A stretch of DNA of 8,049 bases. Source: Candidatus Lithacetigena glycinireducens (GTDB taxonomy: Bacteria > Coprothermobacterota > HKB111). Each line of letters starts with the position of its first letter. The first letter of the stretch is position 1. A model generated the notes under the pieces. It had not been told where the DNA came from, ran no database searches, and worked only from the letters and a program-made list of their open reading frames with translations. Location: assembly GCA_018725485.1 (NCBI GenBank), contig QLUP01000042.1:1-8049 (forward strand), read 5' to 3'. Below are positions 720-7,166 of the stretch, one piece after another. The translations under genes and the position numbers were made by a program.

Positions 720-2147
720 GTGGGAGAAAAAATTACTATATCACCAGTTACCAGAATTGAAGGTCATGCCAGGGTTACCATATATTTAAATGATAATGGA
801 CAAGTAGATAAAACTTTTGTGCATATTGACCAATTCAGAGGTTTTGAAAAATTTTCCGAAGGCAGACCTTATTTTGAAATGCCGCAAATCACACCCCGTA
901 TTTGCGGGATATGCCCAATTAGCCACCACTTAGCTGCTGCTAAAGCCTGCGATGCCTTGATAGGTGTAGAACCCCCCCAACCAGCAAAACTGCTTCGAGA
1001 ACTTATTCACATGGGTCAATGTGTGCAATCTCATGCTATGCATTTTTTCCACCTTGCTGGTCCTGACCTTTTACTGGGGTGGGATAGCGACCCTGCCCTT
1101 AGAAATGTGGTAGGTCTGGTTTTAGCCAATCCCGAGTTAGCTTTAAAAGCGGTAAAACTTCGCAAATATGGCCAGGAAATAATTGCTAAAGTTGCTGGGA
1201 GAAGAATACACCCCACATTTGCTGTTCCAGGTGGGGTAAATACACAACTTACTGTTGAATTTAAAGATAGTATTCTTTCAGAATTAGATACCATGATTGC
1301 TTATATTCAGGAAGGCATTTCCATTGCTAAAACCTGGATGGAAGCTAATATGGAGGTTATTGAAAAATTTGGAAAATTCCCTAGCGGTTATCTGGGATTA
1401 GTAAATGAGGGTGATAGCCTGGAACTTTATGATGGCACTTTAAAATTAACCGATTCAGAAGGGAAAGTTTGGGAAAGATTTAAACCAGCTAACTATCTTG
1501 ATTATATCGAAGAAAGAGTAGAAGATTGGTCATATCTTAAGTTCCCTTATTATAAGAAGCTTAGTTATCCGGAAGGTGTTTATCGCGTAGGACCCTTAGC
1601 CAGGGTGAATAATGCAGAAAAGATTACCACACCTTTAGCGAACGAGGAACTGAAAACCTATAAATCGTTAGGTAATGGCAAGCCCCTTGAGGGTTCACTT
1701 GTTTATCATTATGCCAGATTAATTGAATTACTTTACTCGGCTGAAAGAGCCGGTCAGATACTTAATGACCCCGATGTGCTATCTAACGACATTATTGCAA
1801 TACCTGGAGAACTTCAACCTGAAGGGATTGGTGTTATTGAAGCTCCACGAGGCACTTTAATTCACCACTACTGGATCGATGAAGACGGTGTTATGCAAAA
1901 AGCAAATTTAATAGTTTCTACCGGACACAATAACTGGGCAATTTCCAAAGCAGTTGATGATGTTGCTAAAAATTTCCTTGATGGGAAAAAGCTTAAAGAA
2001 GGTATGTTGAACATGGTTGAAGGGGCTATAAGGTGTTACGACCCCTGTTTCTCTTGTTCTACCCATGCTATAGGAAAAATGCCCCTATTAGTAGAACTGA
2101 AATCAGCTGAAGGCATACTTCTTGATTCAGTAAAGAGAGAAGGATAA
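720..2147 (+). CDS. hoxH: [NiFe]-hydrogenase large (catalytic) subunit precursor, HoxH type
   Basis: The 475-residue product holds the Ni-Fe active site that interconverts H2 with protons and electrons. Four metal-binding cysteines are present as two CxxC pairs: Cys62/Cys65 in the N-terminal RICGICPISHH motif and Cys443/Cys446 in the C-terminal DPCFSCSTH motif. The upstream RGFE and EGRP segments are also typical of the family. The position of Cys443 is a normal TGT codon, so this is not a selenocysteine ([NiFeSe]) enzyme. A 26-residue tail follows His449, the usual cleavage site, so the gene encodes a precursor processed by a specific endopeptidase, which is encoded just downstream. Translation starts at GTG 720 with AGGAGG at 709-714. 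Length and motifs fit group 3 (HoxH-like) subunits; the exact subgroup was not tested against references. Confidence 0.95.
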   Translation: MGEKITISPVTRIEGHARVTIYLNDNGQVDKTFVHIDQFRGFEKFSEGRPYFEMPQITPRICGICPISHHLAAAKACDALIGVEPPQPAKLLRELIHMGQCVQSHAMHFFHLAGPDLLLGWDSDPALRNVVGLVLANPELALKAVKLRKYGQEIIAKVAGRRIHPTFAVPGGVNTQLTVEFKDSILSELDTMIAYIQEGISIAKTWMEANMEVIEKFGKFPSGYLGLVNEGDSLELYDGTLKLTDSEGKVWERFKPANYLDYIEERVEDWSYLKFPYYKKLSYPEGVYRVGPLARVNNAEKITTPLANEELKTYKSLGNGKPLEGSLVYHYARLIELLYSAERAGQILNDPDVLSNDIIAIPGELQPEGIGVIEAPRGTLIHHYWIDEDGVMQKANLIVSTGHNNWAISKAVDDVAKNFLDGKKLKEGMLNMVEGAIRCYDPCFSCSTHAIGKMPLLVELKSAEGILLDSVKREG

Positions 2148-2156
2148 AAAAAGGCT

Positions 2157-2633
2157 CTGACAGAAAATAACAAAAATCATATACCTAATAAAAAGAATCA
2201 CTGTTTAATAATTGGATATGGGAATACAGCCAGGAGAGATGACGGAGCAGGTATTATTGCTGTTGAGTCTCTCCCTGGTAATTTCCCTGCAGATTTATTA
2301 ATACAACAGGAACTTGGTTTAGAGCTAATAGAAACTGTCAGTGCTTATAAACTGGTCATTTTTGTTGATTCATCTGTTGAAGAAGATGTTCCGGATATCT
2401 TCTTGAAGGAGATAAATCTTGAAAGAAAAGGTCCGGGTTTTTCTCACACTCTCAGTCCTTCTACTATTTTAACTCTTTCTAAACAACTATACGGTTCTTC
2501 TACTAAAGGGTACATTATGTCCATTAAGGGGTATGATTTTGATTTAGGAGAGGGTTTAAGCCCTATGACTGAAAAATTAACCAAGCAAGCAATCGAAATA
2601 ATAACTAACCTGGTGGAAAACTGGTCAGGTTAA
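2157..2633 (+). CDS. [NiFe]-hydrogenase maturation endopeptidase (HyaD/HoxW family), non-standard start
   Basis: This protein cuts the C-terminal tail of the large subunit after nickel insertion. The family hallmarks are all visible: GYGNTARRDDGAG near the N-terminus, whose second Asp (residue 29 if counted from CTG) matches the first nickel ligand of HybD-type proteases; FVDSS with Asp71; and FSHTLSP with His97. The C-terminal GEGLSPMTEK segment is also typical. The frame is the same as hoxH and opens right after its TAA stop. No ATG, GTG or TTG occurs before TTG 2403, which lies after the first two ligands and would give an inactive 76-residue fragment. I chose CTG 2157, with AGAAGGA at 2138-2144 twelve bases upstream, giving 158 residues, a normal family length. 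ATA 2181 is an alternative that gives a more typical N-terminus but has no ribosome site. The function call is firm; the start is not. Confidence 0.85.
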   Translation: MTENNKNHIPNKKNHCLIIGYGNTARRDDGAGIIAVESLPGNFPADLLIQQELGLELIETVSAYKLVIFVDSSVEEDVPDIFLKEINLERKGPGFSHTLSPSTILTLSKQLYGSSTKGYIMSIKGYDFDLGEGLSPMTEKLTKQAIEIITNLVENWSG

Positions 2634-3609: not shown

Positions 3610-5879
3610 AAAAAATCCTGATAAAAGGTATTGTCCAGGGTGTTGGTTTTCGTCCCTTCATCTATAGGCTTGCTCATAAATTTCAGGTTAAAGGTTATAT
3701 AATAAATACTTCTAATGGAGTGGTATTAGAAGCTGAAGCTGTAAAACCAGTTTTAAATAAATTTATTGAAGCTATAACCTCTGAAGCCCCCCCATTATCC
3801 AGGATTGAAGAAATAATCATTCAAGAACTGAATCCCAAATATTATTCAGCATTTGAAATCAGAGAAAGCCAGGCTGATGATGGTTACCAATTAATCTCAC
3901 CTGATATTGCAACCTGTAAAGATTGCCTGGATGAATTATTTGACCCTAATGACAGGAGATACCAGTATCCCTTTATTAACTGTACTAACTGTGGTCCCCG
4001 ATTCACTATTATCCAGGATATACCCTACGACCGGGCTAAAACCACCATGTCTATTTTCCCCATGTGCCCACAGTGCAATGAGGAATATCATAATCCTTTG
4101 CACCGTCGTTTTCATGCTCAGCCCAATGCTTGCCCTGCTTGCGGACCCCACCTGATGCTTACCGACAGAACCGGGGTAGAGATAAAAACTGAAAATCCCC
4201 TTAAAAACGCTATTAATTATTTAAAAGAAGGAAAAATTATAGCTATTAAAGGACTTGGAGGGTTCCATTTAACCTGTGATGCTCAAAATAAACAGGTCGT
4301 AGAACTTCTCAGGAAAAGAAAGAATCGGCTTTTTAAGCCTTTTGCCCTGATGATGAAAAGCCTGGAAGATATACATAAATACTGTTATTTAAATAATGAG
4401 GAGATTAAACTTCTCTCCTCGCCACAAGCACCAATTGTACTACTTAAAAAGAAAAATAACACGAATATCGCTCCATCTGTAGCTCCTAATAACAACTATC
4501 TCGGAGTGATGCTTCCTTATACCCCTCTCCATCACCTTCTTCTGAATGGATACCAGGACCCACTGGTAATGACCAGTGGAAATCTGTCAGAAGAACCCAT
4601 CTCTTTTATTAACGAGGAGGCGCTCGAACGGTTAAATAATATGGCTGATTACTTTCTCCTGCATAACCGGGATATCCATGCCTGTTATGATGACAGCGTT
4701 TTGACTATTTTTGAAAATAAAACTTACCCTATAAGAAAAGCTCGCGGATATTCTCCTACAGCTTTAAAACTGAATTTTAAAAAACCTGCTGTGGTATTAG
4801 CTTGCGGTGCAGATCTAAAAAACAGTTTCACTTTTATCAAAGATGGGTATGCTTTTGTAAGCCAGCATAATGGTGATTTAGAGGATTATCAAACTTATAC
4901 AAACTACCAGAGAAACATAGATATTTACCAAAAGCTTTTTCGGCTTGAACCTGATACCGTAGCTTACGATTTACACCCGGATTATTTCTCCACTTTATAC
5001 AGCCAAAGCCTTTCTGCTAAATCCAGGCTTATCCCCATACAACATCATTATGCTCACACAGCCTCCTGTATGACAGATAATGGTTTGAATGAAAGAGTCA
5101 TTGGCATATCTTTTGATGGAGTTGGCTATGGGTTGGATGGTAATTTATGGGGTGGTGAATTTATGATAGCTGATTTCCATGGGTTTGAGAGAGTTTCTCA
5201 CTTAGAGTACCTTCCATTACCAGGAGGAGATATTTCAGTAAAAAAACCCTACAGGATCGCTCTTTCTTATATACACACCTTACTGGGAAAATTACCTCAC
5301 AACCTTGAATTATTAAAATATACAGATGATGAAGAAGTTAACTTGATAATTCAACAGATAGATAAAAACTTTAATACCTTTCTAACTTCCTCCTGTGGAA
5401 GGCTGTTTGATGCTGTTTCCAGCATATTAAACATCTGCCAGAATGTTACTTACGAAGGCCAGGCAGCTATTGAACTGGAAATGTTATCCGAAGATAGGTC
5501 AGATAGCAATGCAGATTATTATCCATTTGACTTGAAAGAAACAGGGAATAGCTGGGTTATTAAGTTAGGGTTACTACTAAATTACCTCCTTGATGACTAC
5601 CTGAAAGGCATAGATAAAGGGGTCATAGGTAATCGCTTTCATAATACCCTGGCAAAAATAGCCTTAACTGTTTCAGAATTAATAAGAGAAAATTACGGTT
5701 TAAATAAGATTGTTCTTAGTGGAGGTTGTTTTCAAAACCAACTCCTGTTAAAAAAGACAATTATGCAAATGCAAAACCAGGGTTTTGAAGTTTATATACA
5801 TAAGAATGTTCCCACTAACGATGGTGGTATTTCTTTAGGACAGGCGGTGATAGCTTATGTGCGTAGCAGTTCCTGCTAA
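3576..5879 (+). CDS. hypF: Carbamoyltransferase HypF (hydrogenase cyanide-ligand synthesis)
   Basis: HypF uses carbamoyl phosphate and ATP to carbamoylate the C-terminal cysteine of HypE, the first step in making the CN ligands. The 767 residues show the full domain order. An acylphosphatase domain has VQGVGFRPF at 20-28 with Arg26 and the NTSNG Asn. Two zinc fingers keep the exact Cx2Cx18Cx2C-x24-Cx2Cx18Cx2C spacing (Cys114, 117, 136, 139, 164, 167, 186, 189). A YrdC-like domain covers about 200-380, with the KRKNRLFKP and TSGNLSEEP segments. A Kae1-like domain has HHYAH at 490-494, FDGVGYG at 513-519, SGGCFQN at 715-721 and Asp749. Length is normal and nothing appears truncated. The ATG lies inside the end of hypB with a good ribosome site, and the gene's end overlaps hypC by 23 bases. 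Confidence 0.97.
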   Translation: MGKLDLQQLELKKILIKGIVQGVGFRPFIYRLAHKFQVKGYIINTSNGVVLEAEAVKPVLNKFIEAITSEAPPLSRIEEIIIQELNPKYYSAFEIRESQADDGYQLISPDIATCKDCLDELFDPNDRRYQYPFINCTNCGPRFTIIQDIPYDRAKTTMSIFPMCPQCNEEYHNPLHRRFHAQPNACPACGPHLMLTDRTGVEIKTENPLKNAINYLKEGKIIAIKGLGGFHLTCDAQNKQVVELLRKRKNRLFKPFALMMKSLEDIHKYCYLNNEEIKLLSSPQAPIVLLKKKNNTNIAPSVAPNNNYLGVMLPYTPLHHLLLNGYQDPLVMTSGNLSEEPISFINEEALERLNNMADYFLLHNRDIHACYDDSVLTIFENKTYPIRKARGYSPTALKLNFKKPAVVLACGADLKNSFTFIKDGYAFVSQHNGDLEDYQTYTNYQRNIDIYQKLFRLEPDTVAYDLHPDYFSTLYSQSLSAKSRLIPIQHHYAHTASCMTDNGLNERVIGISFDGVGYGLDGNLWGGEFMIADFHGFERVSHLEYLPLPGGDISVKKPYRIALSYIHTLLGKLPHNLELLKYTDDEEVNLIIQQIDKNFNTFLTSSCGRLFDAVSSILNICQNVTYEGQAAIELEMLSEDRSDSNADYYPFDLKETGNSWVIKLGLLLNYLLDDYLKGIDKGVIGNRFHNTLAKIALTVSELIRENYGLNKIVLSGGCFQNQLLLKKTIMQMQNQGFEVYIHKNVPTNDGGISLGQAVIAYVRSSSC
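5846..5850 (+). promoter_or_regulatory. Ribosome binding site of hypC (GGTGA) inside hypF
   Basis: GGTGA, a perfect match to part of the anti-Shine-Dalgarno complement GGAGGTGA, lies six bases before ATG 5857, still within the hypF coding region. It supports the overlapping start of hypC. Confidence 0.6.
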
Positions 5880-6072
5880 AATAGTCTCCATTTCAGGAGA
5901 AGAAGCTATGGTAGACTTCGGTGGTCTATTCAGAACCATCAGTCTTCTTTTTACCCCGGAAGCTCAGGTAGAAGATTATGTAATTGTCCATGCGGGCTAT
6001 GCCATTAGTTTGTTGACTGAAGAAGAAGCCCTGGAGACCATCTCTTTGCTTGATAAACTGGAGCAAAAATAA
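5857..6072 (+). CDS. hypC: Hydrogenase maturation chaperone HypC
   Basis: HypC carries the iron centre with its CO and CN ligands, together with HypD, and hands it to the large-subunit precursor. The 71-residue product begins MCVAVPAKI, which contains the essential Cys2 and the family's N-terminal signature, so the start at ATG 5857 is certain even though it lies 23 bases inside hypF. The conserved histidine appears as His45 in VIVHAGYAIS. The protein is at the short end of the family, with a compact C-terminal helix. Its TAA stop shares one base with the hypD ATG (TAATG). Confidence 0.96.
   Translation: MCVAVPAKIVSISGEEAMVDFGGLFRTISLLFTPEAQVEDYVIVHAGYAISLLTEEEALETISLLDKLEQK
6060..6063 (+). 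promoter_or_regulatory. Ribosome binding site of hypD (GGAG) inside hypC
   Basis: GGAG near the end of hypC is eight bases before ATG 6072. It favours this ATG over the in-frame ATG at 6081, and with the TAATG stop-start overlap suggests reinitiation. Confidence 0.55.
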
Positions 6073-7166
6073 TGAATTTAATGGCTAAATACAAAGACCC
6101 TTCACTATTTAGGTATATAATTAAAAATATGTCTGATTTATCAGTCCAACCCTTGACTTTTATGGAATTCTGTGGAACACACACTCAGGCAATTTTTAAA
6201 CACAGTATAAGAAAACTGCTTCCCAAAAATATTAAAATGCTTTCAGGACCTGGATGCCCTGTATGCGTTACTGACCAGAAGGAGATTGACCATTCTATCG
6301 CACTTTCACATTTACAGGGAGTAATTATTGCTACTTTTGGAGATTTTTTGAAGGTTCCCGGAAGCGATGGTTCCAACCTGCAAAAAGCAAGGGCTCAGGG
6401 AGCTGATATCAGGGTAGTATATTCCCCCTTGGACGCTATACAAATTGCCCAAAAAAATAAGGAGAAAAAAGTAATTTTTCTTGGTATAGGTTTTGAAACT
6501 ACTGCTCCTATAGTTGCTGCCTCTATTTTAAAAGCAGTTAAAGAAAATATCTCCAATTATTATGTTTTTTCCATGCATAAGTTAACTCCACCTGCAACCA
6601 AAGCTATCTTAAACCTTGGCGAAATCAAGCTGGATGGAATACTTGGTCCTGGCCATGTTAGCACCATTATTGGATCCTTAGCCTGGGAATTTCTACCCTC
6701 TATATATAATATGCCTTTTGCTATATCAGGCTTTGAAGCGATTGACATTTTAAAGGGCTTAGAAAGCCTGCTTAAACAATGTATTGATAAAAAGCCCCAG
6801 GTTATTAATACCTATTCCAGAAGTGTAAAACCCGAAGGTAATACTCGGGCAATTAACACCATGTTTGAAGTTTTTTACGAAGATGTAGCTCACTGGCGTG
6901 GTTTAGGCGCTATTCCAAACAGTGGGTTAAGTATTAAGAGTTCCTACAGGGAATTTGATGCAAAGCACCAATTTGATATCGAAATTCCAGATTCTAAAGT
7001 TTTATACTCCTATGGTTGCCAGTGCCACGAAGTTATCCGGGGTTTAATTGAACCACCAGAATGTCGCTACTATAAAAATATATGCACCCCTGACAATCCC
7101 TTAGGTGCTTGTATGGTTTCATCTGAAGGCGCTTGCTCTGCCTATTATCTTTACTCTTATGAATAA
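6072..7166 (+). CDS. hypD: Hydrogenase iron-cofactor assembly protein HypD
   Basis: HypD is the [4Fe-4S] scaffold on which, with HypC, the Fe(CN)2CO unit is built. The 364-residue product has the central motif CGTHTQ with Cys34, and GPGCPVCVT with Cys62 and Cys65, matching the 28- and 3-residue spacing of the essential cysteines in E. coli HypD. GFETTAP follows. The C-terminal cluster region is complete, with Cys316 and Cys318 (YGCQCHE), Cys331, Cys338, Cys347 (GACMVSSEG) and Cys355. ATG 6072 overlaps the hypC stop by one base; an in-frame ATG at 6081 would shorten the protein by three residues. The end overlaps hypE by eight bases. Length is normal. Confidence 0.97.
   Translation: MNLMAKYKDPSLFRYIIKNMSDLSVQPLTFMEFCGTHTQAIFKHSIRKLLPKNIKMLSGPGCPVCVTDQKEIDHSIALSHLQGVIIATFGDFLKVPGSDGSNLQKARAQGADIRVVYSPLDAIQIAQKNKEKKVIFLGIGFETTAPIVAASILKAVKENISNYYVFSMHKLTPPATKAILNLGEIKLDGILGPGHVSTIIGSLAWEFLPSIYNMPFAISGFEAIDILKGLESLLKQCIDKKPQVINTYSRSVKPEGNTRAINTMFEVFYEDVAHWRGLGAIPNSGLSIKSSYREFDAKHQFDIEIPDSKVLYSYGCQCHEVIRGLIEPPECRYYKNICTPDNPLGACMVSSEGACSAYYLYSYE

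Follow-up and report, generated by a model that had tools for sequence, protein, structure and literature searches.

The protease gene directly behind the [NiFe]-hydrogenase large-subunit gene in the window, which is the whole 8,049-nucleotide stretch of DNA analyzed here, lacks an ATG, GTG, or TTG codon from which an intact protein could be made, and the same holds for its counterpart in a sister species. Comparison of the two sequences points to a non-canonical start conserved within the genus, most likely the CTG at 2157, and we put the probability that the gene is functional and translated from this codon at roughly 75%. A real gene with a rare CTG start is the most likely explanation because the sister species also lacks standard starts and keeps the same CTG and ribosome-binding site.

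Absence of standard start codons for the protease in the window and a sister species

The MAG from which the window comes is congeneric with Candidatus Psychracetigena formicireducens, the sister species. They belong to the candidate phylum Lithacetigenota, which was described from serpentinite-hosted springs and for which a Hox hydrogenase has been reported (PMC9751293). A search of the phylum found no third member of the genus, and comparisons within the genus are of two genomes. Genes for the [NiFe] small subunit, the large subunit, and the protease are followed in the window by hypA, hypB, hypF, hypC, hypD, and hypE-like genes, with hyp names assigned from sequence and order. The features relevant to the protease start are as follows.

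165–710: [NiFe]-hydrogenase small subunit
720–2147, plus strand: [NiFe] large subunit (hoxH/vhuA-like) with a GTG start; the tail after DPCFSCSTH is the expected protease substrate; the only large subunit found in each of the two genomes (G000, window; G001)
2138–2144, plus strand: Shine-Dalgarno-like AGAAGGA within the final codons of the large-subunit gene and unchanged in the sister; aligned spacing to the CTG 10 nt (sister, 9 nt)
2145–2147, plus strand: TAA stop of the large subunit, 9 nt before CTG 2157 (sister, 8 nt; frame relation not conserved)
2157–2159, plus strand: CTG proposed to initiate the protease, opening a conserved L-T-E-N-N, with a Shine-Dalgarno sequence and a 1-nt indel just upstream
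2157–2633, plus strand: predicted hydrogenase maturation protease of 158 aa, HyaD/HycI/HybD family (TIGR00072; HybD/HycI fold; dN/dS 0.17)
2181–2183, plus strand: rival start, a conserved in-frame ATA lacking a Shine-Dalgarno sequence of at least 4 nt
2211–2213, plus strand: weak rival start, a conserved in-frame ATT within the first beta strand of the model
2403–2405, plus strand: first standard start codon, TTG, past two of the three nickel-ligand positions; TTC in the sister

The best NCBIfam match of the large subunit was VhuA (462.8 bits, below the cut-off of 800) and its C-terminus also matched VhuU; the published MAG annotation names the enzyme Hox.

The large-subunit frame ends at TAA 2145–2147 and then stays open to TAA 2631–2633. 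A frame check bore out the original prediction that no ATG, GTG, or TTG occurs between the hoxH stop and TTG 2403; the near-cognate codons noted in this interval are CTG 2157, ATA 2181, ATA 2208, and ATT 2211, the last of which was not among the original options. The chance that 82 coding codons of the window genome would lack all three standard starts is about 0.025, and this absence alone is not extreme. What lifts it above chance is that the sister species shows it too, and that purifying selection acts on the frame. The sister protease is 82% identical and likewise has no ATG, GTG, or TTG for 72 codons, up to a GTG inside FVDSS. Between the two species, dN/dS was 0.162 over the 82 codons before TTG 2403, 0.181 after it, and 0.17 for the whole gene; the stretch before TTG 2403 is therefore coding and selected, as divergence there is strongly synonymous. 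In neither species could an intact protein be made from ATG, GTG, or TTG. The original prediction had held that a CTG start, an ATA start, readthrough, and sequence error could not be told apart from sequence and had proposed aligning the junction from related genomes; the alignment, in which the sister also lacks a standard start and keeps the CTG and Shine-Dalgarno sequence, decides most of the question.

The protease frame scored 55.5 bits against NCBIfam TIGR00072 (cut-off 47.45), which identifies it as a hydrogenase maturation protease; Pfam profiles gave no match. Residues D28/D29 (counted from the CTG), D71, and H97 were invariant in both alignments, and we take them to correspond to the metal ligands of HybD/HycI proteases, of which there are three: an acidic residue behind GxGN, an Asp, and a His. 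As had been predicted, two of the three come before TTG 2403, which follows the D28/D29 pair and Asp71 and precedes His97; a start at this TTG would consequently lose two ligand positions. A predicted model of the protease (mean pLDDT 78.7) had HycI and HybD as its top PDB matches, with E values from 2e-7 to 2e-6 and TM scores of 0.60–0.64. The first beta strand of the model begins at residue 16, and the first seven residues after the CTG are disordered (pLDDT below 50), so the fold can probably do without them, a point against the CTG start. One TIGR00072 protease was found per genome in both species, beside one [NiFe] large subunit, with the caveat that the window genome is 83% complete; no substitute for the protease is therefore visible. 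The tail that follows DPCFSCSTH in the large subunit is the cleavage substrate expected from sequence.

CTG 2157 as the candidate initiation codon

Multiple observations support the CTG at 2157. First, in the one genome pair available, an in-frame CTG, the residues LTENN from the CTG onward, and AGAAGGA 9–10 nt upstream (aligned spacing) are common to both genomes. Both large-subunit genes share the end AGAGAAGGATAA, which places AAGGA at an aligned spacing of 10 in the window and 9 in the sister; Shine-Dalgarno spacings of at least 9 occur in about 36% of 239 Psychracetigena gene pairs with Shine-Dalgarno sequences, and the spacing to the CTG falls inside the range of the genome. Second, CTG 2157 is the first conserved in-frame near-cognate after the hoxH stop, and with AAGGA it forms a conserved near-cognate with a properly spaced Shine-Dalgarno sequence in two genomes. 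Third, the distance from stop to start, 9 nt in the window and 8 nt in the sister, is inside the interval (–8 to +10 nt) used to predict termination-reinitiation (PMC10666635). Folding of the RNA around the start revealed no structure common to both species, and dN/dS between the CTG and ATA 2181 was 0.63 over just 8 codons, too few to discriminate between starts. Conservation and Shine-Dalgarno spacing thus favor the CTG start with AGAAGGA that was among the original options, with ATA 2181 staying its main rival.

Ribosomes that end the large subunit at TAA 2145, or that are recruited by AGAAGGA at 2138–2144, would reach this CTG, where ordinary fMet-tRNA would initiate 9 nt downstream of the TAA. 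Initiation at the CTG is probably coupled to hoxH termination. With E. coli components, CUG initiation complexes are less stable than those on AUG, GUG, or UUG (PMC11497404), which counts against the CTG. Most ribosomes would fail to initiate at so weak a start, and the yield of catalytic maturase would be low relative to its substrate. Scarcity of a catalytic protein is plausible by analogy, as relatives often start the protease at TTG or GTG, and a low yield of protease may be useful. If this reading is true, a weak start sets a hydrogenase maturation step, at the far end of the TTG/GTG tendency in many related operons.

It is improbable, although less so than the explanations taken up in the next section, that translation begins further downstream, at ATA 2181 or ATT 2211, so that the protein would lose 8 or 18 residues from its N-terminus. 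The sister retains each of these codons in frame, and ATA 2181 lies 33 nt upstream of the GYGN motif (counted to its first Gly codon), a position at which several relatives carry TTG or GTG. AUA starts are documented for infC and ccpN of S. aureus (PMC13009471), and a start at ATA 2181 would leave the predicted fold whole, with its first beta strand from residue 16. By contrast, ATA 2181 has no Shine-Dalgarno sequence of at least 4 nt upstream, lies 33 nt beyond the hoxH stop, a distance at which reinitiation is weak (PMC10666635), and is preceded by the conserved LTENN stretch; ATT 2211 lies inside the first beta strand and has AAAG as its only Shine-Dalgarno match. Of the two ATA codons suggested originally, 2181 is thus conserved but less likely than the CTG for want of a Shine-Dalgarno sequence, and 2208 is not conserved, being ATT in the sister.

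Sequence error, loss of function, and readthrough

An assembly or sequencing error, or a recent mutation of the start codon, could in principle have removed a standard start; AAG 2151, for example, differs from ATG by one base. We consider this highly improbable, since a separate MAG of another species also lacks a standard start and the protease frame shows no other damage and evolves under purifying selection. AAG 2151 as a damaged ATG was rejected, because the codon at this position in the sister is ACA or ACT and nothing like ATG. A homopolymer indel in the A run was likewise unsupported: downstream of the hoxH stop, the first ATG in any of the frames is at 2218, which is already within the active-site motif. 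The length of the protease from the CTG onward is the same in both species. The sister MAG thus disposes of the suggestion that the missing start was an error.

It is equally hard to sustain that the gene is a pseudogene from which full-length protease is no longer made, as the lack of a standard start ahead of the active-site residues might suggest. The frame has a dN/dS of 0.17 across its length and retains the three ligand positions. No other protease of this type was found, with the caveat that the window genome, G000, is 83% complete, and the large subunit beside it still has a tail for cleavage.

Least probable of all is low-level readthrough of TAA 2145 to give a HoxH-protease fusion, another of the original options. 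The window frame does run past the TAA without a further stop, but the sequence from stop to CTG is AAA AAG GCT CTG in the window (9 nt) and AAACAACT CTG in the sister (8 nt), and this 1-nt indel puts the sister protease out of frame with hoxH, so that readthrough there would give K-Q-L-stop and a fusion is excluded. Overlap of the protease start with the stop of the large subunit is common among relatives and places the two genes in different frames, and an in-frame continuation past the stop is not conserved. A fusion is therefore unlikely in the window as well, and the frame common to hoxH and the protease there is accidental.

Start usage in the genus, related operons, and known systems

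The 239 Psychracetigena gene pairs start at ATG (157), TTG (52), or GTG (30). A screen covered 370 aligned gene frames that are preceded by a stop in both species. Of the genuine genes among them, only three had a clearly coding N-terminus with no standard start: the protease, an exported protein of 774 residues (AGGAGG-ATACT-ATC), and phoH (GGAGG-A6/7-GTA). The screen was filtered against antisense shadow frames, and its remaining matches, which comprised non-coding leaders, residual antisense shadows, and pieces of selenoproteins downstream of an in-frame TGA, were sorted out by eye. Frames at L072 from 12090 and L078 from 4215 (both plus strand), which are selD-like and glycine reductase (grdB-like), also have an N-terminus without a start in both species; by eye, they look like the portions of genes downstream of a selenocysteine TGA.

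The gene for the 774-residue protein (L122, contig C140 of G000, 4225–6546, plus strand; L090 in the sister) runs for 84 codons without a standard start in both species, and its product has, by eye, a signal-peptide-like N-terminus, repeats, and an S-layer-homology-like C-terminus; it likely starts at the conserved ATC, 5 nt after AGGAGG. The phoH-like gene (L110, contig C125 of G000, 5266–6249, minus strand; L138 in the sister) has a coding N-terminus without ATG, GTG, or TTG in both species, and GTA, with GAA after it, stands at ideal spacing from its Shine-Dalgarno sequence (AGGAGG-AAAAAA); as a start codon, GTA would be highly unusual. The screen misses genes with an in-frame GTG or TTG inside the Shine-Dalgarno sequence, such as infC, which in E. 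coli starts at AUU. In both Psychracetigena species (L210 and L211), infC has an apparent ATC start behind GGAGGTGA and serves as a positive control for non-canonical starts.

An altered initiator tRNA and missing IF3 were considered as causes. The initiator tRNA showed no sign of alteration, with a normal GGG/CCC anticodon stem in the window genome and the same anticodon arm in the sister, and the IF3 gene is present; the initiation machinery accordingly looks ordinary. A tentative and rather doubtful extension would be that Psychracetigena uses several conserved starts outside ATG, GTG, and TTG (CTG for the protease, ATC for infC and the 774-residue protein, and perhaps GTA for phoH), with the protease CTG as a tuned, IF3-sensitive device that sets the ratio of maturase to hydrogenase.

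In 20 related operons, the protease gene behind the large subunit had a standard start in every case (TTG in 9, ATG in 7, and GTG in 4, by manual reading, with L179 and L190 ambiguous), and many of these starts overlap the large-subunit stop. Since related proteases often start at TTG or GTG, a CTG would extend an existing tendency toward weak starts, and a single transition from TTG to CTG would offer a route from a TTG ancestor. At L190 (genome G168), the junction is a CTGA overlap where relatives have TTGA or GTGA, and CTG may be a possible protease start there too, although an in-frame GTG follows 12 nt later.

For the annotation of deep-branching MAGs, the proposed CTG start is a warning: gene finders limited to ATG, GTG, and TTG would cut the protease to 76 residues or miss it. 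We know of few documented natural CTG starts in bacteria, and our literature search found none for a hydrogenase maturation gene, which is weak evidence of absence.

The protease has the sequence motif and fold of the HyaD/HycI/HybD proteases (TIGR00072), along with their three ligand positions, and its gene likewise lies behind that for the large subunit; it differs from its relatives in the 20 operons, with their TTG, GTG, or ATG starts often overlapping the stop, in lacking a standard start. With termination-reinitiation pairs (PMC10666635), it shares a short stop-to-start distance (8–9 nt), but its start is not ATG, GTG, or TTG and does not overlap the stop. Conserved non-canonical starts are known for infC (AUU in E. 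coli, AUA in S. aureus), pcnB (AUU), ccpN (AUA), and cvfC1 (AUU), and S. aureus reporters with such starts were expressed at about 10–30% of the AUG level (PMC13009471). Like these, the protease is a chromosomal gene with a lineage-conserved start outside AUG, GUG, and UUG and with a Shine-Dalgarno sequence. Unlike these, which use AUU or AUA and in S. aureus have extended, strong Shine-Dalgarno sequences, it would use CUG behind a short one (AAGGA); its start would lie directly behind the stop of another gene, and it encodes a predicted metalloenzyme maturation factor. Non-canonical starts conserved within a lineage are thus already established, and the protease adds a case.
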